This document shows positions 18,242 through 38,405 of a stretch of 48,518 nt of DNA, one piece after another. Position 1 is the stretch's first letter. Each line of letters begins with the position of its first letter. Made by a program: the position numbers and the translations under genes. The notes below the pieces were generated by a model. It saw only the letters and a list, made by a program, of their open reading frames with translations, had not been told where the DNA came from and made no database searches. The stretch covers positions 1 to 48,518 of the forward strand of contig CAIYVA010000082.1 of assembly GCA_903929455.1 (NCBI GenBank), in the 5' to 3' direction. The stretch is from an uncultured Pseudomonadota bacterium (lineage in GTDB: Bacteria > Pseudomonadota > Gammaproteobacteria > Steroidobacterales > Steroidobacteraceae).

Positions 18242-19435
18242 CTAAATATTAGGCGGTGGCGTGAGCTTTCGTCGCGCTGGCGTGTAAAAGGCCTCGCTCA
18301 CCACACGACAGCGGGCGTTAGCACGACTCCACTTCAGTTCTTTCTGATAATAGATCTCCGCCCATAACGTGTCGCTCGGTGATCCTCGCGTCACCTCAAC
18401 ACTGGCGAGCGCGATACTCGCTTTGCACATCGGGGACCATAAAGACGAGGTCACCGCACCGACCACACGTCGCTTATCATCATAGATGTAGGCATCTTTA
18501 GCGGGCTTATTGCCCTCGACATCTAAGCGCACCAAGCGATATCTTGGTCCTCGTGTACGTTCAAAGAGCAAGGCGGCCCGCCCCGTAAAATGGTCTTTAT
18601 TGAAATCAACCAGCCAAGTCAAATCGAGCTCGAAGGGGGAGCGGGTCCGATCCGTTCGTATGGCACGATCAGCAGGTAGAAAGTCGACACCTGCCTGAAT
18701 AAATCCGGCTTCAATGCGCGCCATTTCAAGCGCATGAGTACCCATGGGTTTAATGCCATAGAGTGCCCCCGCCTCAAACAAAGCATCCCACAGCTGCTCA
18801 GCATGGGTTGGCGCTACCCAGAGCTCATAGCCAAGATCTCCAGTGAACCCGGTTCGGGAGATCATCAGTGGAGCGCCTGCTAGGTCGACGACACTGATTG
18901 AGAAAGGCGTCAGCGATTCAATACAAGAGATCCCCATCGCTCTTAGAACGGCGGCGCTGGTCGGTCCTTGTAGGGCAATCGCGGCGATCTCCGCGGTCTC
19001 TTCACGGATCTGCACATCAAATCCAAGTGCGGATCGCACTAGCCAATCAAGCTGCCGCTCCTGAGAACACAGTCGATAGTCGTTTTGGCCAAGGTGAAAA
19101 ATAGTGCCATCATCGATGACCTGACCTCGATCGTCGCACCAAACACAGTACCCCACACGACCCTCGCTAATTTTGCTCACATCGCGGGTCACTAGCCGAT
19201 TGAGGAATGGCAAGGCATCTGGTCCGCTGATGCGATGCTTGGTCATCGGCGAAATATCAAATACCGCACACGCGTTACGCAGCGCCGTGTACTCAAGCGC
19301 CACATCAAAGTAGGCGTCAGAAACGGTGTAATCACGCCACCGATGCCACAGATTTAATTGGTTCGCAGCGTGTGTCCGCGTATGGAAAGGCGTGTGCTTC
19401 ACCACCTGCAAATAATGCGCTCGCGGGGATCTCAC
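18242..19435 (-). CDS. GcvT/DmdA-like folate-dependent aminomethyltransferase family protein
   Basis: A 397-residue protein of the T-protein fold. The N-terminal folate-binding domain covers about residues 40-270, with VFDISPMTKHRISGPDALPFLNRLVTRDV split across 58-86, GRVGYCVWCDDRGQVIDDGTI, ALQGPTSAAVLR and RTGFTGDLGYELW. The C-terminal barrel begins near 290 with FTGRAAL. Relatives include glycine cleavage T-protein, DMSP demethylase DmdA and the folate domains of dimethylglycine dehydrogenase. It would move a one-carbon unit from a small amine or sulfonium to tetrahydrofolate. It starts with a GTG that overlaps the upstream flavoenzyme stop by four bases (GTGA). There are no gcvH or gcvP genes nearby, so a role in glycine cleavage proper is unlikely. 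Confidence 0.85.
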   Translation of the reverse strand: MRSPRAHYLQVVKHTPFHTRTHAANQLNLWHRWRDYTVSDAYFDVALEYTALRNACAVFDISPMTKHRISGPDALPFLNRLVTRDVSKISEGRVGYCVWCDDRGQVIDDGTIFHLGQNDYRLCSQERQLDWLVRSALGFDVQIREETAEIAAIALQGPTSAAVLRAMGISCIESLTPFSISVVDLAGAPLMISRTGFTGDLGYELWVAPTHAEQLWDALFEAGALYGIKPMGTHALEMARIEAGFIQAGVDFLPADRAIRTDRTRSPFELDLTWLVDFNKDHFTGRAALLFERTRGPRYRLVRLDVEGNKPAKDAYIYDDKRRVVGAVTSSLWSPMCKASIALASVEVTRGSPSDTLWAEIYYQKELKWSRANARCRVVSEAFYTPARRKLTPPPNI

Positions 19436-20985
19436 GATGGCCTCTTCAACACAACAGCAGCCGCGTTTCGACCCGCACTACCCATCACCCCACCGCCCGG
19501 ATGAGCTCCCGCACCACACAAGAAGAGCCCCTGCACCGGCATCTGGTACTGCGCAATGCCATGGACTGGTCTTAACATGAGCGCTTGATCCATCGATAGT
19601 TCACCATGATGCCAATGACCGCCCGTCATCCCAAACTGACGTTCGAGATCAACCGGCGTCAAGAGCTCAGTTGCCAACACCAGCTTGCCGATACCAGGCG
19701 CATAGCGCTCAAGCACCTGCATGACCAGCGCCTCAAAGGGCGCTCGCGCCTGCTCCCAACCGCCCTTTAGATCATAAGGCGCATACTGCACGATGGCGGA
19801 TAAGACATGCTGGCCCGGTGGCGCTAAGGTAGCGTCATACACCGTCGGTACGCTCAACTCCATTAGCGGTTGCTCGGAGTAGCGCTGATATTTGGCGGCA
19901 TTGAAGGCTTCATCCGCGTACTCAGCGCTGGGACAAATCAACAGGCGCTCACCGACATGCTCTGGCTGCACACCCCTAAACTGCGGAAGTCCCGACAGCG
20001 CGATATGAACTTTAGCTGCCGTTCCGATACTTCTAAAGTGATGAACCCGCTGAGCGAGCTCCGTATCCAGATGCCTCGCACCGAGCAAGGCCAACAGCGT
20101 CGTTTTCGGATCTAGACTCGACAGCACCGTGGAGGCCTCCACACGCTCACCACTCTCTAATAGCACTGCAGCGACTGCACCGGCGCTCACTTCCAACGAA
20201 GTGACCTTCGAATTTAAACGGATCTCTGCACCCGCGTCGCGCGCGGCGGCGGCCAGCGACTGCGAAACAGCACCCATACCTCCCTGCGGGAGCGCCACTC
20301 CCAAATGGCCTTGTCCGCTATGACGGTGCAGATAACTGAACACCGTATTGCCAGAGCGAGGTCCCAATTTAGTGCCGAGAACCGCATCCATCGCCAGAGC
20401 GCCTTTGAGGTGATCGCTCGAGAACTCTTCATCCAGCACATCTTGAATAGCCATCGTGATGACGCGTAGGAACTCCCGCATATCCTCACGGCCGAGTCGT
20501 CGCACATCAAGGCCAAAGCGTGCGGCTGGCCAAGCGTCAATCAAGCGATCCCATTGCAGTCTAGGAGGCACACGCCCGTGCTGGCGACCCAACACCGATG
20601 CAAAGCGCTGCATGCGCTTCACAAATGGCGCAAATGCCGCGCGGTCAAGCTCAGACAGGGTTCCCGCTAACAACTGAGCACCCTCAAACACCAAAGCCTC
20701 TTGATCGACCGCAAGGGCAACCGACTTTACGTGGGTCTTAGCGAACACCAATCCGTGTCTCGCTAAGCTTAGATCGTTGTGTACCACTGGATCCAGTAAT
20801 GAGGTCAGATGGGAAACGCTCGATACCCGAAATCCTTTAAAGAACTCATGCGTCGCAGCCGCACCGCCCACGTGAGCGCCAGCCTCTAATACCAACACCG
20901 CCTGCCCTGCACGCGCGAGATAGGCCGCCGCCACTAAGCCGTTATGACCGGCACCAATGACGACGGTTGGTTTTTGCTTAATCAT
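19432..20985 (-). CDS. CrtI-like FAD-dependent oxidoreductase, copy 1
   Basis: A 517-residue flavoprotein of the phytoene-dehydrogenase-like group. The FAD-binding signature VVIGAGHNGLVAAAYLARAG begins at residue 8, with GAGHNG at 11-16. The C-terminal FAD contact LFLCGAGAHPGGGVMGSAGRNA is present. Despite the family name, these proteins are not carotenoid enzymes when carotenoid genes are missing, as here. Mammalian PYROXD2 is in the same group. The ATG at 20985 overlaps the upstream paralogue's stop by eight bases; upstream in-frame codons up to 21054 belong to that paralogue's region. Substrate unknown; an amine or amino-acid derivative is suggested by the PLP and GcvT-like neighbours. Confidence 0.85.
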   Translation of the reverse strand: MIKQKPTVVIGAGHNGLVAAAYLARAGQAVLVLEAGAHVGGAAATHEFFKGFRVSSVSHLTSLLDPVVHNDLSLARHGLVFAKTHVKSVALAVDQEALVFEGAQLLAGTLSELDRAAFAPFVKRMQRFASVLGRQHGRVPPRLQWDRLIDAWPAARFGLDVRRLGREDMREFLRVITMAIQDVLDEEFSSDHLKGALAMDAVLGTKLGPRSGNTVFSYLHRHSGQGHLGVALPQGGMGAVSQSLAAAARDAGAEIRLNSKVTSLEVSAGAVAAVLLESGERVEASTVLSSLDPKTTLLALLGARHLDTELAQRVHHFRSIGTAAKVHIALSGLPQFRGVQPEHVGERLLICPSAEYADEAFNAAKYQRYSEQPLMELSVPTVYDATLAPPGQHVLSAIVQYAPYDLKGGWEQARAPFEALVMQVLERYAPGIGKLVLATELLTPVDLERQFGMTGGHWHHGELSMDQALMLRPVHGIAQYQMPVQGLFLCGAGAHPGGGVMGSAGRNAAAVVLKRPS

Positions 20986-22597
20986 CTGACCAACTCCCCG
21001 GCACCGTCGTGGGTCTTCGAAGATCGAGCAACACCTCACGCGCCGCATTGGCACCGGGGGCTGCCATCACGCCACCGCCGGGATGTGACCCTGACCCACA
21101 CAAGTACAGTCCTTTCGCAGGCCCCCGATACTGCGCAAAACCAGGGAACGGTCGGTTGAATAGCAGTTGGTCGAAGGTGAGCTCGCCCTGAAAAATATTA
21201 CCCTCGGTGAGTCCCACCTCCGACTCGAGTTCTTGCGGCGTGCGCACCTCGGCATGCAGCACCAGTTTTTCGAAATCTGGGCTATAGCGAGAAATCTGTG
21301 CAAACACCGTCTTCTTAAATGCCTCACGGTCATCAGCAGTCCACGCCCTACCCTCGATCAACGCCGGTACATACTGCACAAACACGGACATAAAGTGCTT
21401 GCCCGGTGGCGCCATCGTGGGGTCAGTCATCGTCGGCATTAAGAGATCAAGATACGGATCCTTAGACCACGTGCCTCGCTTAAAGTCGTCATAGGCTTTT
21501 TCAAAGCGCTCCAAGGAGTCTAGAAAGTGCATATCCCCAGCCAGTAGCGGGTGATTAGGGCCTAATGCAGGGAACGAGGGTAAGCCATCTAATGCAATAT
21601 TAATCTTGCCGGAGGAACCACGAATTTTGAAGTTACGGGCGCGCTTCACCAAGCTGGCATCGAGTGACTGTTCACTCAACAGTCCCAAGAAGGTTCGTTT
21701 GGGATCAAGTGCAGATAAGACGACCGGCGCCTCGAACTCATCACCATTATCGAGTGCCACCCCCGTCACCTTGCCACCACGCGTGACAATCTGGGCAACG
21801 GGAGAATTCACACGGATTTCTCCACCCATGGATTGTAGCGAGCGTGCGATGGCCTGGGAGACAGCACCCATCCCACCGCGTGCAAAACCCCACGCCCCCA
21901 TCTGCCCATCCACATCACCCATATAGTGGTGGAGCAATACGTAGGCAGTCCCCGGCGAATACACACCCAGTGCGGTACCAATAATGCCGCTGCCAGCAAA
22001 ATTAGCCTTCACCATGTCGTTCTCAAAATACTCGCTCAGGTAGTCAGCAATACTCATCGTATAAAAACGCAAGGTATCGTAAATCGCTGCCTCGCCAAGC
22101 TTTCCAAACTCGCCGCCGATATACAGCATCTCTTTTAGATCGCGCGGTTTAAGTGACGTGGGATCAGGAGGAGTGCGCATCAGCAAGGAACGCACCAAAC
22201 GGCACTGGCGCATCACATCGCGGCCATAGCGCAGATAGGCATCGCTGTCTTTACTGCTATATCTAGCGATCTCCCGACGCTTTACCTCCTTATCGACATA
22301 GCCGCCCAACACATCGCCGTCACGGGTAAAGCCGACCCCGCCCCCATAAGGCACTACCTGCAAACCATGCCGCCCCAAGTCCAGACTGCGGTAGATTTCG
22401 GGTCGCAGCAAACCGCACACATACGAGCAATTCGAGTAAATCCAACCCGCATGCAGCTCGCGGCTGACCGTCGCCCCACCAAAGTACGGATTCTTTTCCA
22501 GCACCAGAACCTTAAGCCCAGCCTTCGCCAAGAAAGCCGCGCTGGTTAGGCCATTGTGCCCCGCACCGACGACAATGGCGTCATAGCGAGTCGTCAC
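20978..22597 (-). CDS. CrtI-like FAD-dependent oxidoreductase, copy 2
   Basis: About 539 residues, a paralogue of the next gene. Starting at the GTG at 22597 (VTTRYDAIVVGAGHNG) puts GAGHNG at residues 11-16, exactly as in copy 1, which is why I prefer it. A GTG at 22675 would add 26 poorly conserved arginine-rich residues and overlap the upstream gene. The closing motif LYLCGSGSHPGGGVMAAPGANA is conserved. It also has ARGGMGAVSQAIARSLQSMGG, shared in form with copy 1. Two adjacent diverged copies suggest a heteromer or two steps on related substrates. Substrate unknown. Confidence 0.83.
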   Translation of the reverse strand: MTTRYDAIVVGAGHNGLTSAAFLAKAGLKVLVLEKNPYFGGATVSRELHAGWIYSNCSYVCGLLRPEIYRSLDLGRHGLQVVPYGGGVGFTRDGDVLGGYVDKEVKRREIARYSSKDSDAYLRYGRDVMRQCRLVRSLLMRTPPDPTSLKPRDLKEMLYIGGEFGKLGEAAIYDTLRFYTMSIADYLSEYFENDMVKANFAGSGIIGTALGVYSPGTAYVLLHHYMGDVDGQMGAWGFARGGMGAVSQAIARSLQSMGGEIRVNSPVAQIVTRGGKVTGVALDNGDEFEAPVVLSALDPKRTFLGLLSEQSLDASLVKRARNFKIRGSSGKINIALDGLPSFPALGPNHPLLAGDMHFLDSLERFEKAYDDFKRGTWSKDPYLDLLMPTMTDPTMAPPGKHFMSVFVQYVPALIEGRAWTADDREAFKKTVFAQISRYSPDFEKLVLHAEVRTPQELESEVGLTEGNIFQGELTFDQLLFNRPFPGFAQYRGPAKGLYLCGSGSHPGGGVMAAPGANAAREVLLDLRRPTTVPGSWSDD

Positions 22598-22661
22598 TCG
22601 TGAGCCCACTGCCTGGCCAGTTGCCAGGCTCGTTTGACGCCTACTGAACGCACACCGTGCC

Positions 22662-23930
22662 TCACGCTCGTACACTCATATCAGCAAGCAGTGCAACGAT
22701 GCGATCCACTTCCGCTAAGGTGTTGTAGTGAGCGAATCCGATACGCACCACGCCACCCGTCTCACGTACGCCCAATACACCGGCAATCTCATAGGCATAG
22801 AAGCTGCCATCCCAGACGTAAATATTGTGCTCCGCGAATTCTGTGGCTACCGCGCGTGGCTCTAAGTGCCCAATGCGAAGACTAAACGTCGGCACACGCG
22901 CACTTGCTTGGCTAACATCCGCTATGCCGTACAAGGTGATGTTCCTCAAAGGAGCAATACCCGCGAGAAATCGTTCGGTCAACGCGAGCTCATGCGCTTG
23001 AGCGGCCGCGTAGCCTGCGACTATTTGCTCCCTGAGAGACGCTGGCGCTTGAGCGCCAAAGCGCTCACCTAGCCAAGCCATGTGCTCAATAGCGCCTTGC
23101 GTAGCACACTGGGCCTCAAAAGAAGGTGTACCCGGTGAGTGTTTAGTTGGCATTGAATCAGAGGCGGGTCTGACCTTTAAGGGCACTAGGCGATTGGCTA
23201 ACTCGCGCTTGACGTACAAAAGACCCGCGTGAGGACCAAAAAACTTGTACGGCGATGTCGACAGTAGGTCACATCCCAACGCTTTCACATCGATCGCAAG
23301 ATGGGCAACCGACTGCACGGCATCCACCATGGTAAGCGCACCAACGGCTTTCGCAGCATCGATAATGCGCTTCACATCATTGATCGTGCCCAAGAAATTG
23401 CTCGCGTGATTACACGCAACCAAACGTGTTTTTGAATTGATTAAAGAACTTAACGTGTCATACCGATACTGAAAGCTCTGTACGTCAAACTCGAGCCAGC
23501 GTACGGTCACGCCACGCTCCTGCGCAGCAATGAGCCACGGCGCGATGTTGGCGTCGTGGTCCATGCGGGACAACACGATCTCATCACCGCTCTGCCACGC
23601 TCGGGAGATCATGCGCGAGAAATTAAACAACTGCGAGGTGGTATTTAATCCGAAGACGACTTCGTCTGGATCAGCGCCCAAAAAAGTAGCCGCCACCGCA
23701 TGCGCCTGTATGAGGCCTGCGTCTGTCAACTGAGACGTTCGAAAAGCGCCCCCATCATTGGCACAGTGGTTAACCATCGAGGCATGTAGTCGAGTCAGGG
23801 CACGCGCAGCCACCTGAGTACCACCGGGCGCATCCGCATACAGACGCGGTTTGTCATGATCGGTGAGGCCAAGCGCCGGGAAAGCAGCGCGAACCTCCAC
23901 GTCATCCCAAGGGAGCGTATGTTTTGACAT
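22662..23930 (-). CDS. Class V PLP enzyme, cysteine desulfurase-like (VC1184 subfamily type)
   Basis: About 422 residues from the ATG at 23930, which has AGGAA nine bases upstream; the frame extends to 23987 without support. The PLP lysine is Lys229 in STSPYKFFGPH, and the pyridine-nitrogen aspartate is Asp203 in MVDAVQSVAH. The early motif ADAPGGTQV is typical of the VC1184-type branch. I do not see the mobile-loop active-site cysteine used by true cysteine desulfurases, and no suf/isc genes are nearby. Another reaction on an amino acid, such as lyase or transaminase chemistry, is likely. It is the first gene of a four-gene leftward operon with two flavoenzymes and a GcvT-like protein. Confidence 0.82.
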   Translation of the reverse strand: MSKHTLPWDDVEVRAAFPALGLTDHDKPRLYADAPGGTQVAARALTRLHASMVNHCANDGGAFRTSQLTDAGLIQAHAVAATFLGADPDEVVFGLNTTSQLFNFSRMISRAWQSGDEIVLSRMDHDANIAPWLIAAQERGVTVRWLEFDVQSFQYRYDTLSSLINSKTRLVACNHASNFLGTINDVKRIIDAAKAVGALTMVDAVQSVAHLAIDVKALGCDLLSTSPYKFFGPHAGLLYVKRELANRLVPLKVRPASDSMPTKHSPGTPSFEAQCATQGAIEHMAWLGERFGAQAPASLREQIVAGYAAAQAHELALTERFLAGIAPLRNITLYGIADVSQASARVPTFSLRIGHLEPRAVATEFAEHNIYVWDGSFYAYEIAGVLGVRETGGVVRIGFAHYNTLAEVDRIVALLADMSVRA

Positions 23931-28691: not shown

Positions 28692-29195
28692 TTACCCAGT
28701 CGTCACGGTCAGAGCGGCGCCAAGCCGCTCAACCGCGGCTACCCAGTCAGACGCCACGCTGGCATGCACCCACACAGTGAAACCCAGCTCATCGCGCACT
28801 AAGATCGATGGGCAATCAAACAGTGTTACTGCCGCACACTCTCGACCCTGCAACGTGGCCTCCACATCGATGGTTGACGCCAATACGCGCTGGGCACCCG
28901 GGCCTTGCAATGTCATCGCCACCCACTTACCCGTGACCTCAACCCAACTGCCCCACTGCGCAGCTGCCCGTATGCGCGCCTCAAACGCTGCACTCGGTCC
29001 GACTAACAACCAGCGGCCAGGTGCAAAATAAAGACTGCTGCCACCATCATCGGTACCTGTAACGGTACCGGGCCGACGTGGCAATCCTAGGCCATCACCT
29101 GCTGTACTCGACGCATCAAACGCGGCGATCTCCACTACCCGTACCGCGACGGACCTCACCAGCCAGCACGACTCTGTTTGCACGTGTGTGCTCAT
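28692..29195 (-). CDS. soxG: Sarcosine oxidase gamma subunit
   Basis: A 167-residue protein. Sequence alone gives weak similarity (FAPGRWLLVGP, ALQGP-like MTLQGPGAQRVLAS, and FTVWVHASVASDWV), which are T-protein-fold signatures found in SoxG. Position is decisive: its ATG overlaps the soxA stop by four bases (ATGA), the canonical soxBDAG order. SoxG is part of the heterotetramer that oxidises sarcosine to glycine. It is shorter than many SoxG proteins. Confidence 0.83.
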   Translation of the reverse strand: MSTHVQTESCWLVRSVAVRVVEIAAFDASSTAGDGLGLPRRPGTVTGTDDGGSSLYFAPGRWLLVGPSAAFEARIRAAAQWGSWVEVTGKWVAMTLQGPGAQRVLASTIDVEATLQGRECAAVTLFDCPSILVRDELGFTVWVHASVASDWVAAVERLGAALTVTTG

Positions 29196-32134
29196 GATTT
29201 GATCCGCTCACCTGTTGGATCCACATGCACAGTCGATGTGACCCGCACCGGTGTCTCCTGACCACGCAGCGGATCGCGTGCGATCAGCGTGGCGCCCTCT
29301 ATCGCCTGTGCTCGGGCAAGCAGCGCAAGTCCAATCCACTCATTCAAAGTGGGACTAAACACGCTCGAGGTAATGTAGCCCAAAGGTTGCGTTGACGACA
29401 GGGTGGTGAGCTGAGCACCCGCTAAAAATCCACTACAGCCATCGACAGCGCGTACCCCAACGAGTCGGCCTCGTGTTGGCTCATGAAAGGCTGGCCGATC
29501 AAGCAACGCGCGACCGACGCACGGGTTGCCTAAACGCACTAGGCTGTCCATATTCAGATCACCCGGTGTCGTCTGTCCATTTAATTCGGAGCTCACCAGA
29601 TAGCCTTTTTCAACACGTAAGATATCGAGCGCATCGATGCCGTAAGGCTCAAGACCGCTAGTAACCAACGCTTCCCACAAAGCCACCGCAGCGGCAGGGC
29701 CTACATGCAGCTCATAGGCCAGCTCACCCGAGAAGCTCGCACGCAGCACCGTCAGTGCCACCCCTGCATAATGTCCCTGAGCAAAATCCATATGCGTCAG
29801 AGTCTCGATGCGAGACTGCCACTCGCTGCCTAAGACATGTTGAATGGCAGCCCGACTGCGCGGACCGGCCACTGCTATCACGCTCCACGCATCAGTAATA
29901 TCGGTCAGCGTCACTGCGCGCCCCGGCCAATCCACCTCACGATAGTGTTCGAAGTGCGACAGCATGTGTTCCGCATGCCCAGAGCTGGTCGTCGCAATAA
30001 AGCGATCCGCAGCCAGACGCAGCACAATGCCATCATCTAACACCATGCCATCTTCGCGTAGATTGACCATGTACTTCGATCGACCAATCTTAATGGTGCT
30101 CGCCTTAGTCAGATACATCGAATCCAAGAACGCAGCGACATCTGCTCCCACCACTTCAATTTTACCTAAGGTAGACCCATCAACGATCCCACCCGTGGTG
30201 CGCACTCGACGCGCTTCAGTCACCGCCGCGATCGCGGCGTCCGCGCCGTTTGATCGATAAAAACGAGGACGCATCCAAAGACCCATCGGATCAAGCACAC
30301 CACCGTGTGAGACGTGCCAGTCATGCAAGGGAGTTCGCTTCGCAACGCGCAGAGCGGATCCCACCCGTAACCCTGCCATCGCACGCATGGTCATCGGATG
30401 ATAGGGTGGTCTGGGTCGACTGAGACCCACAGACTCGATGGACTCGCCTTTAAGCTCAGCTAATATCGCGGCGCCTAGCACGGTACTGGTGCGGCCTTGT
30501 TCAGTGCCAATACCCAAGGTGGCGTAGCGTTTCACGTGCTCGATGTCTCTAAAACCCTCCGCTAATGACGCGCGCAGATCAGCCACCGTGACATCATTCT
30601 GAAAATCAATAAACTGTCGCTTCTCTTGCGACGGTGTGCAAGGCGCGCGCCAATAGGGTGCTAACCGAGGTGCTGGATCGCCTAAGCCCATTGGGATGCC
30701 AGCACCATCACTGACCAAGCCTAACTCGCTCATAACGCGCGCCGTCACGCTGGCAGCTTCTGATAACACAGCAGCCAACTCAAAGTGACCTGAGGAGGCA
30801 CCGACCGTCACGCGACCGATAGGCTGATCAGTGACCGTGAAGGTCGCTTTATCAGCGGCATAGCGCGTCGTACCGCCTCCCTGCAAGCCCGCGTGCATTG
30901 CAGGCGACCAACCTCCACTGGTCAACAATAGATCGCAGGCGATGCGCTTGGCTTTACCGCTTCGCAAGTGCTGGATGTCAACACCCGTTACCGTACGCCA
31001 ACCCTTGGCAGAGACCACTGCAGACTCTGACAAACACAACACACCAGCGACCTGCAAACTGGCGCAGTGACGAGCCGTCACAGCATCTTGCTCCAGTACC
31101 GCGGCAGAGCGCGTGTCAATCACTGCTCGCACCGACACACCCGCCTTCACTAAACGAGCGGCGGCTGCATAGGCACGCTGATGATTGGCAAAGATCACCG
31201 CACGCCGACCCGTGAGTGCGCCATAACGACGACTCAGACGTTCCGCAGCCCCAAGCAACATCACACCCGGCAGATCGTTGTTGATCAGAGCAATCGGTCG
31301 CTCGATCGCACCCATCGCAATCACAAGTACACGCGATCGGATGTGAAATACCTTATTGTGACCCGCAAGACCACCGGGCTCGTGATGCGCGATATGTACG
31401 CCACCGGTGCCACCCACTAAGGTGGTATCAGTCAGGATGCGCACACCCAGCGTCTGTAGCATCTGCTCCGTGGCCGTTACCCAACTGGTCGCCGGTTGTC
31501 CATCAACAAGCGCACTCTCAAACTCAAGTTCGCCACCCAGTACCGGCTCTCGCTCAACCAACACCACGCGCGCACCGGTATGGGCAGCGACTAAGGCAGC
31601 TGATAGACCGGCTGCACCGGCACCAGCCACCAACACGTCACAGCTGAGGTATTCCACAGCGGCGACCGGCAGATCACTGGCGCCTGGCGCCTCCCCGAGG
31701 CCCGCGAGGCGCCGAATCAGTGATTCATAGGTGCGCCAAGAAGGCCACATGAACGTCTTATAGTAGAAGCCGGCACCAAAAAAGCCGCTACCCAGTTGTA
31801 ATAGTGACGCCACATCGAAGCGCAGTGACGGCCAACGGTTTTGACTTTTTAAAACCAAGCCCTCTCTCAGTTGCAGCTGCGGGGCCGACACGTTGGGAAT
31901 CACCATCGGTGTCACTCCCACGGTCAAAAGCGCATTTGGCTCTTCCGGACCGACCGCCAGTAACCCGCGCAAGCGTCTGTATTTAACACTGCGCCCTAAG
32001 GCGAATATGCCGTGGGCCATTAACACCGACGCCGCCGTATCACCCACCTGCGCCTCATACTCCCGTCCATCAAAGATAAAACGAAGCGTTTTATCTGACA
32101 GTCGCGTGCCGACTCTTTTAATCGCAGCCTTCAT
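29192..32134 (-). CDS. soxA: Sarcosine oxidase alpha subunit
   Basis: A 980-residue subunit. The N-terminal ferredoxin-like domain (residues 18-75, RFIFDGREYEAQVGD and SVKYRRLRG) precedes the NAD-binding domain with GAGAAG at 171-176. From about residue 590 to the end comes the GcvT-like tetrahydrofolate domain (AVAGPRSRAAIQHVLG and SGELAYELHVGP). The enzyme oxidises sarcosine at SoxB and passes the methylene group to tetrahydrofolate here. The start overlaps soxD and the end overlaps soxG, each by four bases, suggesting equal production. The length agrees with known SoxA. Confidence 0.93.
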   Translation of the reverse strand: MKAAIKRVGTRLSDKTLRFIFDGREYEAQVGDTAASVLMAHGIFALGRSVKYRRLRGLLAVGPEEPNALLTVGVTPMVIPNVSAPQLQLREGLVLKSQNRWPSLRFDVASLLQLGSGFFGAGFYYKTFMWPSWRTYESLIRRLAGLGEAPGASDLPVAAVEYLSCDVLVAGAGAAGLSAALVAAHTGARVVLVEREPVLGGELEFESALVDGQPATSWVTATEQMLQTLGVRILTDTTLVGGTGGVHIAHHEPGGLAGHNKVFHIRSRVLVIAMGAIERPIALINNDLPGVMLLGAAERLSRRYGALTGRRAVIFANHQRAYAAAARLVKAGVSVRAVIDTRSAAVLEQDAVTARHCASLQVAGVLCLSESAVVSAKGWRTVTGVDIQHLRSGKAKRIACDLLLTSGGWSPAMHAGLQGGGTTRYAADKATFTVTDQPIGRVTVGASSGHFELAAVLSEAASVTARVMSELGLVSDGAGIPMGLGDPAPRLAPYWRAPCTPSQEKRQFIDFQNDVTVADLRASLAEGFRDIEHVKRYATLGIGTEQGRTSTVLGAAILAELKGESIESVGLSRPRPPYHPMTMRAMAGLRVGSALRVAKRTPLHDWHVSHGGVLDPMGLWMRPRFYRSNGADAAIAAVTEARRVRTTGGIVDGSTLGKIEVVGADVAAFLDSMYLTKASTIKIGRSKYMVNLREDGMVLDDGIVLRLAADRFIATTSSGHAEHMLSHFEHYREVDWPGRAVTLTDITDAWSVIAVAGPRSRAAIQHVLGSEWQSRIETLTHMDFAQGHYAGVALTVLRASFSGELAYELHVGPAAAVALWEALVTSGLEPYGIDALDILRVEKGYLVSSELNGQTTPGDLNMDSLVRLGNPCVGRALLDRPAFHEPTRGRLVGVRAVDGCSGFLAGAQLTTLSSTQPLGYITSSVFSPTLNEWIGLALLARAQAIEGATLIARDPLRGQETPVRVTSTVHVDPTGERIKS

Positions 32135-32373
32135 GAGGTCACAGCACCCAGCAGGTTCATCTCAAGCACCTCACCGGTAGACGGATTGCGGCGCGCCTTT
32201 AGCCACGCCCGACAACCACGCACGTGTTGCCAATACTCGTGACTGTCGTCTACTTGGTTAATTCTGAGATACACGGCGGAGAGTGGATCATCACCCGCAT
32301 TAGGAAGTGTTTTATGAAACGCGAACTCCGCAAGTTCCCGTACGCCGCAAAAAGGGCAGCTCAGTGAAGTCAT
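32131..32373 (-). CDS. soxD: Sarcosine oxidase delta subunit
   Basis: An 80-residue zinc protein. Cys6 and Cys9 (CPFCG) with His50 and Cys54 (HVRGC) form the expected zinc site, keeping the His-x3-Cys spacing of known SoxD. The early RELAEF and the LRINQVDDSHEYWQHVRGC region match the family. It overlaps soxB at its start and soxA at its end by four bases each. It is a structural subunit of heterotetrameric sarcosine oxidase. Confidence 0.92.
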   Translation of the reverse strand: MTSLSCPFCGVRELAEFAFHKTLPNAGDDPLSAVYLRINQVDDSHEYWQHVRGCRAWLKARRNPSTGEVLEMNLLGAVTS

Positions 32374-33647
32374 AAGCGCACCGGAAAAGGGCCATAGCCT
32401 GGCTCATCGAGCAGGTGTCCGGTCGCAAACCGCGACAATGCATAGCCTTTGATCAGATCCGGTGCCGTACCCGTCGCAACCAACGTGGCACAAGCGGCAC
32501 CGGATGCGGGGATGGTCTTAAAGCCACCGTAGCACCAGCCTGCATTTAGAAAAACGTTGTCGTAGCGGCAGCGATCAATGATCGGACTGCCATCCATCGT
32601 CATGTCATTGGTGCCTGCCCACTGCCTGACAATTTTCACACCGGCCAATTGCGGAAACAAATCAACGGCACCCGCCACCACGTCTTGCATGCGATCCCAT
32701 GTGCCTTCGCGCGTGTAGGATGGAAAGCCATCTAAATGACCTCCCATCACTAAGCCACCGCGATCAGACTGAGAGAGGTAGGTCTCGCCATGACCTGGGA
32801 ACACTGACACCATCACGGTATCTAGAAAAGGTTTGATGGGCTCAGACACCATGGCCTGTAACAAATGGGTCTCGATGGGTAGTGGCACACCGAGCATCGT
32901 GCCAATCATGCCGGTGTGACCGGCTGTTGCGAATAAGATGCGCTCTGCGCGCACATAGCCACGCGTTGTCTCTACCCCTTCCGCAACATCGGCATGCGAT
33001 CGCACGCCGGTGACCTCACAGTCCTCAATGATATCAACCCCAAGCGCACTGGCAGCACGGGCATACCCCCACGCCACAGCGTCATGTCGGACCGTACCAC
33101 CGCGTGCTTGCACCAAAGCGCCCGCCAAGGGAAAGCGTCGTACCCGCCGCGGTGCCAGTTGCGGGTAGGCACGCTCGAGCGCCGCTACGTCCAACAGCTC
33201 CGCATCAATACCTGCCAAACGCAGCGCATTGCCCCGTCTCGCCATGGCGGGTATCTCATCCTCAGACACCGCCAAATCAACTACACCCCGCGGGCTATAC
33301 ATCACGTTGTAGTTCAGATCACGCGATAAGGTGCCCCAACGACGCAATGCATCCTCGTAAAAATAGTGATTTTCTGGCAACAAATAATTGGAGCGAACAA
33401 TGGTGGTATTGCGCCCCACATTGCCGTAACCCACCAATCGCTTCTCAAGGATCGCGATGCGCTTAATGCCATGATCGCGCGCTAAGTGGTACGCGGTCGC
33501 TAAGCCGTGACCGCCAGCACCGACGATCACCACATCGTAGTGATCTTTTAAAGTGCGTCCCGTCCACAGTGGCCGCCAATACCGGCTACCTGCCCATCTT
33601 GCGCGCAGCAACGCTAAGGCAGAGTAGTGACGGCGCGCTAATGGCAT
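32370..33647 (-). CDS. soxB: Sarcosine oxidase beta subunit
   Basis: A 425-residue flavoprotein holding the sarcosine-oxidising site. The dinucleotide fold is at 38-56 (VVIVGAGGHGLATAYHLA), with the family pieces GRNTTIVRSNYL at 78-89 and AGWCYGGFKTIPASG near the end. His188, in VRHDAVAWGYA, corresponds by context to the histidine that holds FMN covalently in known SoxB. The ATG at 33647 lies 13 bases after the TetR stop, so the regulator and enzyme genes share a transcript. A roughly 35-residue basic, aromatic N-terminal stretch before the flavin fold is normal for the family. Confidence 0.92.
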   Translation of the reverse strand: MPLARRHYSALALLRARWAGSRYWRPLWTGRTLKDHYDVVIVGAGGHGLATAYHLARDHGIKRIAILEKRLVGYGNVGRNTTIVRSNYLLPENHYFYEDALRRWGTLSRDLNYNVMYSPRGVVDLAVSEDEIPAMARRGNALRLAGIDAELLDVAALERAYPQLAPRRVRRFPLAGALVQARGGTVRHDAVAWGYARAASALGVDIIEDCEVTGVRSHADVAEGVETTRGYVRAERILFATAGHTGMIGTMLGVPLPIETHLLQAMVSEPIKPFLDTVMVSVFPGHGETYLSQSDRGGLVMGGHLDGFPSYTREGTWDRMQDVVAGAVDLFPQLAGVKIVRQWAGTNDMTMDGSPIIDRCRYDNVFLNAGWCYGGFKTIPASGAACATLVATGTAPDLIKGYALSRFATGHLLDEPGYGPFPVRL

Positions 33648-33660
33648 AGCACCTGATTCC

Positions 33661-34251
33661 TCATGGCAGCACCAGCTTCAAAATCTGTCCGACCAACTGC
33701 TTCCGTCGCTTCGCAGGGAAGCGTGCCGGCTCGAAATTGGCGCCAATCCATAGACCGTCGATCGCCGCACAAAGCAAGGCGACCGCATCCTCCATTGAAA
33801 CAGGCGCTTTGATGTGCCGACGGCGTACCGCCTCAGTCACCTGCTGCGTGAGGTAGCGACGCCAACGAGCATAATAGTTGCGGTGTATTTTAGCGAGCAC
33901 TGGGTTATGCACCGCGCCGCCCCACAAACTAAGCCAAACCGCCATAAAACTTTGCACCCCGGGGCCTGGCACCATAAATTCAAGCGCCGCCCGTACCCGA
34001 GCAAGCCCAGGCGCCGTGTCCCGTAAAATCACCTCTAGGTCTTTAAACGACTCGGCCGCTACCCACTGAAAAGTGAAAGCAACCAGAGCATCCTTGTCTG
34101 CGAAGTAGTGGGTCAGCACACCGATGCTGAATCCACCTTCTTTGGCGATTTTACGGATGGTCGCGTGCTCTGGACCATCCCGCTGGATAACCCTCACCGC
34201 CAATTCGGCCAATTCTTGACGACGCTGGTTATGGTCAACGATTTTTGGCAT
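33661..34251 (-). CDS. TetR-family regulator, BetI-like
   Basis: A 196-residue repressor. The helix-turn-helix covers residues 29-50 (ATIRKIAKEGGFSIGVLTHYF), with ADKDALV after it. The ATG at 34251 gives the BetI-like opening MPKIVDHNQRRQEL; the frame extends to 34311 but the extra residues do not fit. BetI controls choline-to-betaine genes, so a quaternary amine ligand is plausible here. It is the first gene of the sox operon and divergent from mttB, so it is well placed to control both directions. Confidence 0.87.
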   Translation of the reverse strand: MPKIVDHNQRRQELAELAVRVIQRDGPEHATIRKIAKEGGFSIGVLTHYFADKDALVAFTFQWVAAESFKDLEVILRDTAPGLARVRAALEFMVPGPGVQSFMAVWLSLWGGAVHNPVLAKIHRNYYARWRRYLTQQVTEAVRRRHIKAPVSMEDAVALLCAAIDGLWIGANFEPARFPAKRRKQLVGQILKLVLP

Positions 34252-34335
34252 GGCGGCTCTCGTCGGCGGCGCGTACGTCCGCCCTAATAAAGACAGAGCA
34301 TAGCGCAGCAAAGGAGCGCCTGCTTAATAATTACA

Positions 34336-34371
34336 CTTGTTATAAAATAGGCCGCCCTGTGCTATAACAGG
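34336..34371. promoter_or_regulatory. Paired 16-bp dyad elements, candidate TetR operator
   Basis: CTTGTTATAAAATAGG (34336-34351) and CCTGTGCTATAACAGG (34356-34371) are inverted relatives: reversing the second gives a sequence matching the first at 12 of 16 positions. The second alone has CCTGT/ACAGG arms. Their starts are 20 bases apart, about two DNA turns. They sit in the divergent control region (34252-34428) and overlap AT-rich promoter-like hexamers for both operons. Binding by the BetI-like regulator is inferred. Confidence 0.5.
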
Positions 34372-34428
34372 ACGAATACTGGCAGCACCTAACACCGACT
34401 GACCGATCTGGCTTGATAGGAGAACGGC

Positions 34429-35982
34429 TTGACTGATCCAAATCTCAGCGCTCGTACCCCGCGTGGCTTATCGCGCGAAACCCGTCGGGTCGCGCGTGAG
34501 CAAGCCCAAGCAATCAAGCTGCCCTATATCCGCCGCAAGCTACCGACCATTGATTTGCTGAGCTCAGAGGCGGTAGAGATTATTGAAGCCAATGCCGAGA
34601 CTATCCTTGAGGAAATCGGCGTGGAATTTCGTCGTGACCCAGAATCGCTTCGTCTATGGCGCGAGGCCGGCGCCGATGTGATCGGTGAGCGCGTGCGCAT
34701 CCCACGTGGCTTAGCACGCCAACTCCTGAAGACAGCACCGCGTGAATTCACGGTGCACGCACGGAACCCGTTGCGGGATGTGCGTTTTGGTGGCGATGCC
34801 ACGGTGTTCTCACCCGTCGGCGGGCCACCCTTTGTCACAGACCTCGATCGTGGCCGGCGATATGGGACACTCGAGGATCTGCATAATTTCATTAAGCTCG
34901 CGCACATGGCGCCTGCCATTCACTTCTCAGGTGGTAGCACCGTTGAACCCATGGATATCCCGGCGGGCAAGCGCCACCTAGATGTGCAATATGCTTTTTT
35001 CCGCTACAGCGATCAAGGCTGTGAGGCGACACCTGAAACACCCGGTCACGCCGCCGACGCCATCAAAATGGCGCAGCTGGTATTTGGCGAAGACTATGTT
35101 GATCAACACCCGGTTGTCCTCGGAAACATTAATTCCAACTCACCGCTGACCTTTGATGGACGGATGCTCGGTGCCTTGCGGGTATTCGCAGCGCACAACC
35201 AAGGCACCATTGTTGTTCCTGCTGTCTTGGCCGGGGCAATGGGACCGGTGACTGCCGCAGGTTGCATGTCAGAGATACTGGCAGAGACCCTTGCCGGCAT
35301 GGCACTCACCCAATTGGTACGCAAAGGCGCGCCCGTGATCATGGGATCGTTCGTTGGCGCCATTTCGATGCGTACCGGGGCGCCAACGTTTGGCACACCG
35401 GAAGCCACGCAGATGATTTTTGCGACAGCGCAATTAGCACGCCGACTGGGCGTCCCCTGCCGCAGTGGTGGCTCTTTGTGTTCAGCCAAAACGGCCGATG
35501 CGCAAGCTGCCTACGAGAGCGCGCACACGCTGTTGCCTACCTTGCTTGCTGGCGTCAACCTGGTCACCCATGCGGCAGGCTGGCTAGAGGGCGGCTTAGT
35601 CTCAGGTTATGAGAAATTTGTGATGGATGCAGATCAACTGGCCATGATGCAATCCCTCGCCTCGGGTATGGATCTCACGGCGCGCGGTCAAGCACTGGAT
35701 GCGATTCGAGAGGTAGGGCCTGGGGGGCACTTTTTAGGATGCGCCCACACACAGGCAAACTTTGAGACCGCCTTCTATCAATCCACCATCGCTGATTATT
35801 CATCGTACGAACAGTGGTCTAGTGAGGGTAGCTTGTCTGCCGAGCAGCGCGCCAATAAGGTATGGAAGAAGATGCTGGCGGAGTATCAAGACCCTGGCAT
35901 TGATCCAGCACAGGATGAGGCGATGCTGCACTTCATGCAGAAACGACGCGCTGAACTGACCGACAATATTGAAGAGGAATAA
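34429..35982 (+). CDS. mttB: MttB-family (COG5598) methyltransferase, non-pyrrolysine
   Basis: A 517-residue protein of the trimethylamine methyltransferase family. Landmarks are ILEEIGVEF near 60, FTVHARNPLRDVRFGG, CEATPETPGHAAD, and PVIMGSFVGAISMRTGAPTFG. No in-frame amber codon occurs, so it is not a pyrrolysine enzyme. Non-pyrrolysine relatives include MtgB, which demethylates glycine betaine in anaerobes using a corrinoid protein. The start is a TTG at 34429 with AGGAGA seven bases upstream. The dehydrogenase gene follows after five bases. The likely reaction is demethylation of a quaternary amine, perhaps betaine to dimethylglycine, but the acceptor is unclear because no corrinoid protein gene is present. 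Confidence 0.87.
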   Translation: MTDPNLSARTPRGLSRETRRVAREQAQAIKLPYIRRKLPTIDLLSSEAVEIIEANAETILEEIGVEFRRDPESLRLWREAGADVIGERVRIPRGLARQLLKTAPREFTVHARNPLRDVRFGGDATVFSPVGGPPFVTDLDRGRRYGTLEDLHNFIKLAHMAPAIHFSGGSTVEPMDIPAGKRHLDVQYAFFRYSDQGCEATPETPGHAADAIKMAQLVFGEDYVDQHPVVLGNINSNSPLTFDGRMLGALRVFAAHNQGTIVVPAVLAGAMGPVTAAGCMSEILAETLAGMALTQLVRKGAPVIMGSFVGAISMRTGAPTFGTPEATQMIFATAQLARRLGVPCRSGGSLCSAKTADAQAAYESAHTLLPTLLAGVNLVTHAAGWLEGGLVSGYEKFVMDADQLAMMQSLASGMDLTARGQALDAIREVGPGGHFLGCAHTQANFETAFYQSTIADYSSYEQWSSEGSLSAEQRANKVWKKMLAEYQDPGIDPAQDEAMLHFMQKRRAELTDNIEEE

Positions 35983-35987
35983 AGAGA

Positions 35988-38405
35988 ATGAAGAGTCACT
36001 ATCGCGTCGTGGTCATCGGTGGCGGCATCGTCGGTACCAGCGTGCTCTATCATCTCGCACGCCACGGATGGTCGGATATTGCTTTAATAGAACGTGCGGA
36101 ACTCACCGCGGGATCCACCTGGCATGCAGCCGCCGGTTTTCATGCGATCAATGACGATCCCAATATCGCAGCGCTGCAGGCGTACACGATCAAGCTCTAT
36201 AAGGAAGTGGAGGCTGAGAGCGGACAAAACGTTGGCATGCATATGCCAGGCGGCTATAGCATCGCCACCACCCCCGCGCGATGGGAATGGCTCAAGTCAG
36301 AGTACGCCGTGTACCAAACATTAGGGATTGACGCACGATTGGCGACGCCCGAACAAATCGTCGCAGACTGTCCGATTGTTGATCCGAAAGGTTTACTCGG
36401 TGGGTTATTCGATCCGCATGAGGGTGCTGTGGATCCACACGGTGCTACCCACGCCTTTGCCATCGCGGCGCGAAAAAGAGGCGCTGAGGTCATTTTGCAC
36501 AATCGCGTCGTTGCACTATCGCCACTGCCCAACGGACACTGGCGCGTGGAGACTGAGCAGGGTGTGGTGATCGCTGAACATGTGGTGAATGCGGGTGGTC
36601 TGTGGGCGCGTCGTGTTGGCCGCATGGCCGGTATTGATCTTCCCCTGACCCCCATGCAGCACCATTATTTGATAACCGAAGACCTGCCAGAACTGGTGAC
36701 TCGCGCGGATGAGATGCCGTGCGTAACTGACCTTGAGGGCTTCACCTACTTACAACAAGAGCGCAAAGGTGTGCTGCTCGGTGTCTACGAGCGTGACCCA
36801 CGCCATTGGAAAACAGAGGGTGCCGAGTGGGATTACGGCATGGAACTGATTCCTGAAGAAATTGACCGCATCAGCCCAGAGTTGCTGATTGGATTTAAGC
36901 GATTCCCTAGTCTCGAGCGCGCCGGTATTCGCAAGTGGGTCAATGGCGCTTTCACCTTCACACCCGATGGCAATCCTTTAGTCGGCCCAGTACCCGGTCT
37001 TAAGAACTTTTGGACGGCGTGCGGCTGTATGGGTGGCTTTTCACAAGGCGGTGCCATCGGCAAAGTGCTCTCCAATTGGATTGTGGAGGGTGACCCGGGT
37101 TCTGACATATTTGGCATGGATGTGGCGCGCTATGGCGCCTTTGCCAGTCATGATCGCTACCTCAGAGACATGACGGCGCAGTTCTATGCACGCCGCTTTA
37201 TTATTGCTTACCCGAATGAAGAGTTGCCAGCCGGGCGTCCGCTTAAAATGAACCCCAGCTACGATGCGCAACGCCAATTAGGCGCGCGCTTCGGTGTGGT
37301 GTGGGGAATGGAAACACCGCAGTACTACGCCAGTGATGCACCGGATTTCGTTGAGCGCCCGAGTCTTAAGCGCTCCGATGCCGATCGCTTCGTGGCCAGC
37401 GAAGTAGCTGCCACGCGCGCCGCTGCGGGTCTGTTAGATACCAGTGTGTATGGCCGCTATGAGGTCTCAGGCCCGCATGCCGAGCGTTGGCTCAATCATC
37501 TGCTAGCCAATCGATTACCCGAGGTCGGTCGTGTCCGACTGGCCCCCATGCTGAGCCCGTCCGGCCGACTGATGGGTGATCTCACCGTCACCCGCTTCAG
37601 TCCGACGCGCTTCTGGCTCATCGGCTCCTACTACTTACAAGAATGGCATCTACGTTGGTTCAATGATCATTTACCAAAGAGCGGTGTGACCATTGAGAAT
37701 CTCTCCGAAAGCTGGCTTGGCTTCTCTCTATCGGGACCTCAGTCACGCGCGATCTTGGCAAGCCTGACCAAGGCCGATGTATCTAACAAGGCCCTGCCCT
37801 TCATGAGCTGCCAAGTACTCGATATCGGTCTCACTCAAGCCGTGGTCGCTCGTTTATCACTCACGGGCGAACTGGGCTATGAGATCACGGTACCCGCAAG
37901 TCAACAGCGGGCGTTGTGGCACGTGCTCATGGAGGCAGGTACGCCACTTGGCATGAAACCCATTGGCATGCGTGCGCAAGACAGCCTGCGGCTAGAGAAA
38001 GGCTATGGTGTGTGGTCCCTTGAGTTCTCGGCCTCCTACACACCAGGGATGTGCGGCTTGGAGCGTTTTATCGATTTCAATAAAGGCGACTTTATCGGTC
38101 GTGACGCGGCGCTACTGGCATCTAAAACCACACCGGATGAAACACTGGTGTTAATGAGCATTGATGCCGTCGATGCGGATGTCACAGGCTATGAGCCCAT
38201 CTATCATCAAGGTGAACGCATCGGCTTCATCACCTCCGGCTGCTACGGTCACCACGTGCAAAAAAGTCTGGCGCTTGCGTATGTGAAGAGCGCTCTGGCC
38301 AACTCCACCGCTGAGCTATCCGTGACGGTGGTTGGTGAGCCGCGGCGTGCGCGGATTCTAAAAGAACCACCCTATGATCCCAAGGCACTTAAACTGCGTT
38401 CTTAG
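35988..38405 (+). CDS. FAD/GcvT dimethylglycine or sarcosine dehydrogenase
   Basis: An 805-residue two-part enzyme. Residues 5-370 are a DAO-type FAD domain (GGGIVG at 11-16; His46 in STWHAAAG, the position of covalent FAD in rat dimethylglycine dehydrogenase). A linker domain at about 375-430 is followed by a GcvT tetrahydrofolate domain (LLDTSVYGRYEVSGP; FSLSGPQSRAI; LTGELGYEI) and its C-terminal barrel. It should oxidise an N-methyl amine such as dimethylglycine and capture the methylene group on tetrahydrofolate. The ATG at 35988 lies five bases after mttB and has an AAAGAGA ribosome site. Confidence 0.92.
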   Translation: MKSHYRVVVIGGGIVGTSVLYHLARHGWSDIALIERAELTAGSTWHAAAGFHAINDDPNIAALQAYTIKLYKEVEAESGQNVGMHMPGGYSIATTPARWEWLKSEYAVYQTLGIDARLATPEQIVADCPIVDPKGLLGGLFDPHEGAVDPHGATHAFAIAARKRGAEVILHNRVVALSPLPNGHWRVETEQGVVIAEHVVNAGGLWARRVGRMAGIDLPLTPMQHHYLITEDLPELVTRADEMPCVTDLEGFTYLQQERKGVLLGVYERDPRHWKTEGAEWDYGMELIPEEIDRISPELLIGFKRFPSLERAGIRKWVNGAFTFTPDGNPLVGPVPGLKNFWTACGCMGGFSQGGAIGKVLSNWIVEGDPGSDIFGMDVARYGAFASHDRYLRDMTAQFYARRFIIAYPNEELPAGRPLKMNPSYDAQRQLGARFGVVWGMETPQYYASDAPDFVERPSLKRSDADRFVASEVAATRAAAGLLDTSVYGRYEVSGPHAERWLNHLLANRLPEVGRVRLAPMLSPSGRLMGDLTVTRFSPTRFWLIGSYYLQEWHLRWFNDHLPKSGVTIENLSESWLGFSLSGPQSRAILASLTKADVSNKALPFMSCQVLDIGLTQAVVARLSLTGELGYEITVPASQQRALWHVLMEAGTPLGMKPIGMRAQDSLRLEKGYGVWSLEFSASYTPGMCGLERFIDFNKGDFIGRDAALLASKTTPDETLVLMSIDAVDADVTGYEPIYHQGERIGFITSGCYGHHVQKSLALAYVKSALANSTAELSVTVVGEPRRARILKEPPYDPKALKLRS

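Follow-up and report, generated by a model that had tools for sequence, protein, structure and literature searches.

A conserved FlavB-FlavA-GcvT gene trio as a predicted split N-demethylase with folate as carbon acceptor

Two CrtO-like FAD enzymes (called here FlavB and FlavA) and a GcvT-like folate protein are encoded side by side in the window, a stretch of 48,518 nucleotides from an uncultured bacterium of the Steroidobacteraceae. These three genes, and not four, form the conserved unit, which is old and tightly conserved. Judged from the protein families and their gene context, the trio is predicted, with a probability of roughly two in three, to be a split N-demethylase similar to dimethylglycine oxidase (DMGO) and dimethylglycine dehydrogenase (DMGDH), with folate as the carbon acceptor. 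If this is true, part of a flavoprotein branch that is now labelled as carotenoid enzymes would be an amine N-demethylase branch, and free-living bacteria would have a so far undescribed way of passing carbon from methylated amines into the one-carbon units of folate. No published account of the trio was found in the open-access literature (subscription papers and bioRxiv preprints were outside the scope of the search).

Gene layout

Four open reading frames, all of them real, run leftward on the minus strand between 23930 and 18242, as an earlier note on this DNA had claimed. The outermost encodes a PLP enzyme of the TIGR01976 group (422 aa, 22662-23930), which lies outside the conserved trio and is separated from FlavB by a gap of 64 bases without overlap (22598-22661). 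FlavB (539 aa, 20978-22597) is the first gene of the trio and begins with a GTG at 22597, a position set by the start of its relatives; it is followed by FlavA (517 aa, 19432-20985, ATG start) and by the GcvT-like gene (397 aa, 18242-19435), whose product comprises GCV_T and GCV_T_C domains and carries the aspartate D109. The two junction overlaps of 8 and 4 bases given in the earlier note are correct and correspond to FlavB/FlavA (20978-20985) and FlavA/GcvT (19432-19435). Its protein families (an Aminotran_5/TIGR01976-type PLP enzyme, two CrtO/CrtI-like FAD proteins and a GCV_T + GCV_T_C protein) were also recovered, with the refinements that the flavoenzymes match CrtO best and that the PLP enzyme falls in TIGR01976. 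Likewise, neither carotenoid nor sulfur-assembly genes, which it had described as absent nearby, were found among the 18 window proteins scanned. Two features were missed at that stage: a separate sarcosine/dimethylglycine-type methylamine island in the same window (29192..38405, mixed strands) and a second trio in the same genome, located on contig C102 (locus L085).

Conservation of the trio

The gene order, conservation, protein families, aspartate position and neighbours of the trio are all observed features. Searching species genomes with the GcvT-like protein led to 76 loci, and both flavoenzyme genes adjoin the GcvT gene (within 5 kb, same strand) in 60/60 of those with at least 3.3 kb of upstream sequence and in 67/76 overall. 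One or both flavoenzymes are missing from 8 of the 76, and each of these has less than 1.2 kb of sequence upstream of its GcvT ORF; another locus (L084) has no usable GcvT ORF. The 60 loci contain 72 complete modules, 55 of them in the order FlavB-FlavA-GcvT and 17 in the order FlavA-FlavB-GcvT.

The same linkage is seen starting from FlavB. The 80 genomes of the window's family hold 82 FlavB places. Excluding 43 that are FlavA copies or stand-alone paralogues, at 40% identity or less, leaves 39 at 46% identity or more, and 36 of these have an adjacent GcvT gene. It lies on the opposite side of FlavB in 6 of these 36, and a second flavoenzyme is also found beside FlavB in the three of the six whose loci were retrieved (L105-L107) as well as in G042 (L108). 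The three places with no GcvT match near FlavB belong to G048 and G076, where the match is on another contig, and to G042, where a 38% GcvT-like ORF at the contig end falls below the search threshold. The named loci partly coincide with the G genomes (the contigs of L009 and G041:C28 are equal in length, as are those of L015 and G023:C9), so that these counts are not independent.

Across the phylum, the GcvT subfamily was found in 11 of 398 sampled genomes, the window's own included, which is a lower bound given the threshold of 1e-60 and the scoring of only some first-look candidates. In all 10 of the other genomes a FlavB that is 58-63% identical lies beside GcvT on the same contig, with the second flavoenzyme between the two (two of the ten are loci L097 and L098). 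In a tree of 73 rows (26 of the 76 loci plus the window), FlavA and FlavB fall into separate clades, both supported at 100/100. Additionally, between-module distances agree across the three trio proteins (Spearman 0.68-0.79; for the two pairs tested, 0/300 permutations reached such a value), an agreement also expected from shared ancestry alone. The four-gene unit proposed in the earlier note is thus retained for FlavB, FlavA and GcvT, and the co-occurrence across genomes that it had suggested surveying extends far beyond close relatives for these three genes; the PLP gene, discussed below, is only a local neighbour and does not share this distribution.

Genomic neighbourhood and possible substrates

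Representatives of the recurring neighbours resemble GbcA, PuuC, PuuA, AmaA/PuuB, PotF and agmatinase. Only the agmatinase, of ten representatives, passes its curated cut-off, and the PuuA-like neighbour scores slightly better as a type III glutamine synthetase; one neighbour is a spermidine dehydrogenase (1e-144 to the solved SpdH). Polyamine-type neighbours (at least one of PuuA, PuuB/AmaA, SpdH, agmatinase and PotF per locus) are present in 27/62 module loci versus 0/20 control stretches, a difference that is overstated because the families were picked after viewing the loci, and the controls (20 stretches elsewhere on 18 module-bearing contigs) have a different taxon mix. Of 96 loci considered, the 62 with a length of 13 kb or more were used; locus L085 was too short and was excluded. 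BetI-like regulators are weakly enriched (19/62 module loci versus 2/20 controls, p 0.055), and the four TetR regulators that were scanned all resemble BetI, with three exceeding the PRK00767 cut-off. No enrichment was seen for the PuuC-like dehydrogenase (9/62 module loci versus 4/20 controls) or the class III aminotransferase (6/62 versus 1/20), and polyamine, Rieske and BetI markers are all absent from 16/62 module loci, that of the window's nearest relative included. The second trio of the window genome adjoins a PotA/PotG-like ATPase, a class III aminotransferase and a Rieske gene.

Within the window itself, the amine genes nearest to FlavB among the 18 proteins scanned are those of the methylamine island, about 6-16 kb away. 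It encodes SoxA-like and SoxB-like proteins and a BetI-like regulator on the minus strand, and an MttB-like protein and a DMGDH-like protein with a GcvT domain on the plus strand; soxB scores above its own cut-off and the other members below theirs.

The earlier note had put forward N-methyl amino acids as candidate substrates, and N-methyl amines indeed appear to be the right kind of compound. As a tentative and reasoned guess, the substrate of the trio would be a diamine, polyamine or lysine that carries N-methyl groups, since enzymes of the PuuA, PuuB, AmaA and SpdH types would then receive the released amine. A SAM methyltransferase gene adjoins FlavB in one locus (L103), a hint that certain hosts may produce the methylated compound as well. 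The N-methylated polyamines of silica-forming algae might, as a speculation, be a source of substrate; no link to bacterial degradation was found for them in the excerpted text of PMC12206195.

The GcvT-like protein and the proposed mechanism

The last protein of the trio matches GCV_T (1e-59) and GCV_T_C (1e-7). An ordinary glycine-cleavage GcvT is ruled out by its scores under the curated cut-offs (NF001567, 225 against 300 bits; TIGR00528, 162.3 against 235.85 bits). Two other GcvT-sized open frames (381 and 369 aa) are located on other contigs of the genome. D109 aligns with residue 96 of the T-protein 1woo, at the position of the T-protein aspartate that we take to be catalytic, and this position is invariant in 47/47 rows. 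A search for the catalytic residue in PMC7487153 brought up no mention of it. The closest solved relative is the C-terminal part of TMAO demethylase (5e-53), followed by T-proteins and the GcvT-like 3tfh, and then by sarcosine and dimethylglycine enzymes.

From these features we infer the chemistry, the step order, the use of folate and the substrate. Oxidation of an amine's N-methyl group by a flavoenzyme would give an N-methylene iminium, whose carbon would be taken by the GcvT-like protein, with tetrahydrofolate bound and by means of its conserved aspartate, as 5,10-methylene-tetrahydrofolate; the amine would then be released with one methyl group fewer. The presence of two flavoenzymes per module suggests either two successive demethylations (of a tertiary and then of a secondary amine) or one heteromeric oxidase, and a single folate protein would be common to FlavA and FlavB. 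Where a GbcA-like Rieske oxygenase is encoded nearby, it may remove the first methyl from the quaternary form. The oxidations and the one-carbon transfer to folate suggested in the earlier note are therefore compatible with the trio; the PLP activation of an amino compound that it had placed in the same pathway is dropped because the PLP gene does not co-occur with the trio beyond close relatives.

A less likely possibility, yet the best surviving of the alternatives, is that the GcvT-like protein transfers methyl groups directly, as an S-, O- or N-oxide demethylase in the manner of DmdA, LigM or TMAO demethylase, and that the demethylated product then has its carbon chain oxidised or desaturated by the flavoenzymes, a reaction typical of the CrtI type. 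The proximity of TMAO demethylase among solved structures would suit such a transferase, as would the profiles of DMSP demethylase and of LigM-type and DesA-type enzymes, which also match the protein below their cut-offs, and CrtO and CrtI as the best named flavoenzyme profiles would suit a chain oxidation. However, the T-protein aspartate is retained, the neighbours point to amines and, to our knowledge, DmdA and LigM need no fixed flavoprotein partner, all of which speaks against this alternative.

The PLP gene

The PLP protein scores 418.6 bits against TIGR01976 (cysteine desulfurase-like, VC1184 group), above the cut-off of 352.35, and has a tyrosine at the aligned place of the desulfurase cysteine (compared with 8d8s and 6wci). 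A function as cysteine desulfurase or in sulfur assembly is ruled out by this missing catalytic cysteine. Its best solved relative is Fgm3 (3.6e-54), for which the excerpted texts report the cleavage of 4-hydroxy-L-arginine (PMC10967133; PMC10367076) and which, like the PLP enzyme, is devoid of a cysteine at the aligned desulfurase place. Unlike Fgm3, the relatives of the PLP gene lie near DauA-like and agmatinase-like genes and not in a peptide cluster. A DauA-like gene is found near the PLP gene in 7/11 PLP loci (window, L009, L010-L014, L089-L092), the copy in L092 matching D-arginine dehydrogenase at 2e-94, and an agmatinase-like gene in L092 and L013. Because of these neighbours and of the chemistry of Fgm3, the PLP gene more likely belongs to a guanidino-amino-acid set.

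It is rather improbable that all four genes serve one pathway in which, for this lineage, the PLP enzyme makes or cleaves the compound on which the trio acts. Such a pathway would agree with the common strand and the 64-base gap in the window, and with the presence of the PLP gene within the sequence stretch of 6/76 GcvT loci (L009-L014; some stretches are short). Among these six, however, it directly adjoins the trio only in L009 (whose contig is as long as G041:C28, the nearest relative), and in L010-L014 an opposite-strand flavoenzyme gene stands between the PLP gene and the trio. Moreover, PLP relatives at 59% identity or more occur in 6/80 family genomes, beside the trio in G000 and G041 but on another contig in G023, G057 and G072, and G024 has such a relative with no GcvT match at 1e-70 and a FlavB match of only 39%. 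The association with DauA-like genes also speaks against this pathway, which was set aside since only near relatives show a linkage of PLP gene and trio.

The flavoenzymes and PYROXD2

FlavA and FlavB match CrtO and Amino_oxidase best, with DAO matching mainly over the N-terminal FAD part. Against the CrtO profile (cut-off 1000) FlavB reaches 253.6 bits and FlavA 216 bits, and against the CrtI family profile (cut-off 238.1) 120.1 and 131.7 bits, respectively. Their structure models are confident (mean pLDDT 88.7 for FlavB and 89.1 for FlavA; pTM 0.90) and have as top fold match 4rep, a gamma-carotenoid desaturase, with further matches to renalase, putrescine oxidase, nicotine oxidoreductase, monoamine oxidases, protoporphyrinogen oxidase and Rab GDI, so that fold comparison of these models does not discriminate a desaturase from an amine oxidase. 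In keeping with the CrtO and CrtI profiles and the first fold match, the substrates of the flavoenzymes might be carotenoids or other isoprenoids, with GcvT as an incidental neighbour. This is very improbable, since that neighbour is not incidental with a linkage of 60/60, the CrtO scores amount to between a fifth and a quarter of the cut-off, no carotenoid gene was found among the 18 window proteins and the annotated neighbour representatives, and finch PYROXD2, which is CrtO-like as FlavA and FlavB are (it resembles CrtO most, with about 35% to that of Synechocystis), is without carotenoid activity according to the excerpted report (PMC12010460).

PYROXD2 has also been connected with methylated amines. 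A PYROXD2 missense variant accounts for 50% of the variance of human plasma N6-methyllysine (p about 1e-146) and 48% of that of N6,N6-dimethyllysine, and is also associated with N-methylpipecolate and N6,N6,N6-trimethyllysine (PMC8109053, excerpt). The methyl-lysine link replicates (PMC9730628, excerpt). Additionally, urine trimethylamine and plasma dimethylamine map to the PYROXD2 locus, and the lower-expression allele is accompanied by higher levels of both (PMC3169529, excerpt). For rs11189559, the excerpted text of one study reports no significant mediation through PYROXD2 expression (PMC13352909), and an excerpted clinical paper calls the precise function of the protein little known (PMC8777681). 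An association between this locus and a metabolite is not an enzyme activity, and no stated reaction of PYROXD2 was found in a search of the open-access literature. A provisional, unverified PYROXD2 sequence gave 38% with both FlavB and FlavA, and with a stand-alone paralogue up to 41%, a comparison that is a lead only and does not make FlavB an orthologue.

Should the trio prove to be an N-demethylase, PYROXD2 would be a candidate for the same reaction, and the three-gene bacterial system would give a definite biochemical prediction for the human protein. In its most specific and doubtful form, the prediction is that the trio demethylates free N-methyl-lysines and N-methyl-polyamines and that PYROXD2 is a mitochondrial N-methyl-lysine demethylase or oxidase of the same type. 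If true, this would explain why variation at the locus accounts for half of the plasma N6-methyllysine variance, and methylene-THF or formaldehyde would be the missing PYROXD2 product. We know of no GcvT partner of PYROXD2.

Comparison with known systems

FlavA and FlavB share with CrtO and CrtI their best named profiles and their top fold match, and differ from them by scores far under the curated cut-offs, a fixed GcvT partner and amine-type neighbours. Tdm, the TMAO demethylase, is similar in that its C-terminal GcvT part is the closest solved relative of the GcvT-like protein; on the other hand, the latter covers only positions 382-732 of the 763 in the family profile and misses its cut-off (269.1 against 1100 bits), and we know of no flavoprotein in the Tdm system. 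Dimethylglycine oxidase forms an iminium by means of its flavin and passes the methylene on to folate. The trio resembles DMGO, DMGDH and heterotetrameric sarcosine oxidase in pairing flavoprotein with a GcvT-fold folate part, and this part keeps the T-protein aspartate as in the DMGO, DMGDH and SoxA types. Unlike these, the trio consists of three separate genes with two flavoproteins together, and these flavoproteins are CrtO-like, the DAO-type part of the known flavin-folate demethylases being absent. By analogy with these enzymes, the trio is probably a variant of flavin-folate N-demethylation built from other flavoproteins.

Putative folate-linked demethylation genes in the genome of the window

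Judged from matches to the GcvT family, putative folate-linked demethylases are unusually abundant in the genome that harbors the window: 13 matches were found in 2.44 Mb, many of them in open frames of 780–1030 aa, the size of sarcosine/dimethylglycine enzymes. The window itself carries a sarcosine/dimethylglycine-type island (29192–38405) encoding SoxA-like, SoxB-like, MttB-like and DMGDH-like proteins and a BetI-like regulator. The DMGDH-like protein contains a GcvT domain; the MttB-like protein, whose reading frame is open under table 11, scores far under the TMA methyltransferase cut-off. On contig C102 of this genome (2804–9833), a second trio of FlavB, FlavA and GcvT-like genes sits beside genes for a PotA/PotG-like ATPase and for a class III aminotransferase; the end of that contig carries a Rieske gene on the opposite strand.

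Gene neighborhoods in related loci

The PLP gene has a DauA-like gene close by in L092 (4595–7984), L090 (6270–9605) and L010–L014, accompanied in L092 by an agmatinase-like gene, and these genes possibly form a guanidino-amino-acid catabolic set. SAM methyltransferases alike in type adjoin FlavB in L103 (4285–5067) and lie near the PLP gene in L090 (4833–5633); their product is perhaps a methylated amine. The CrtO-like paralogues of L036, L042, L047, L058, L066, L070 and L072 form one clade (100/99), and none is directly followed by a FlavA or GcvT gene; at several loci, cupin, aminotransferase or SSS-type transporter genes lie near these stand-alone paralogues. Of the groups compared, this clade comes nearest to an approximate sequence of the animal protein PYROXD2.
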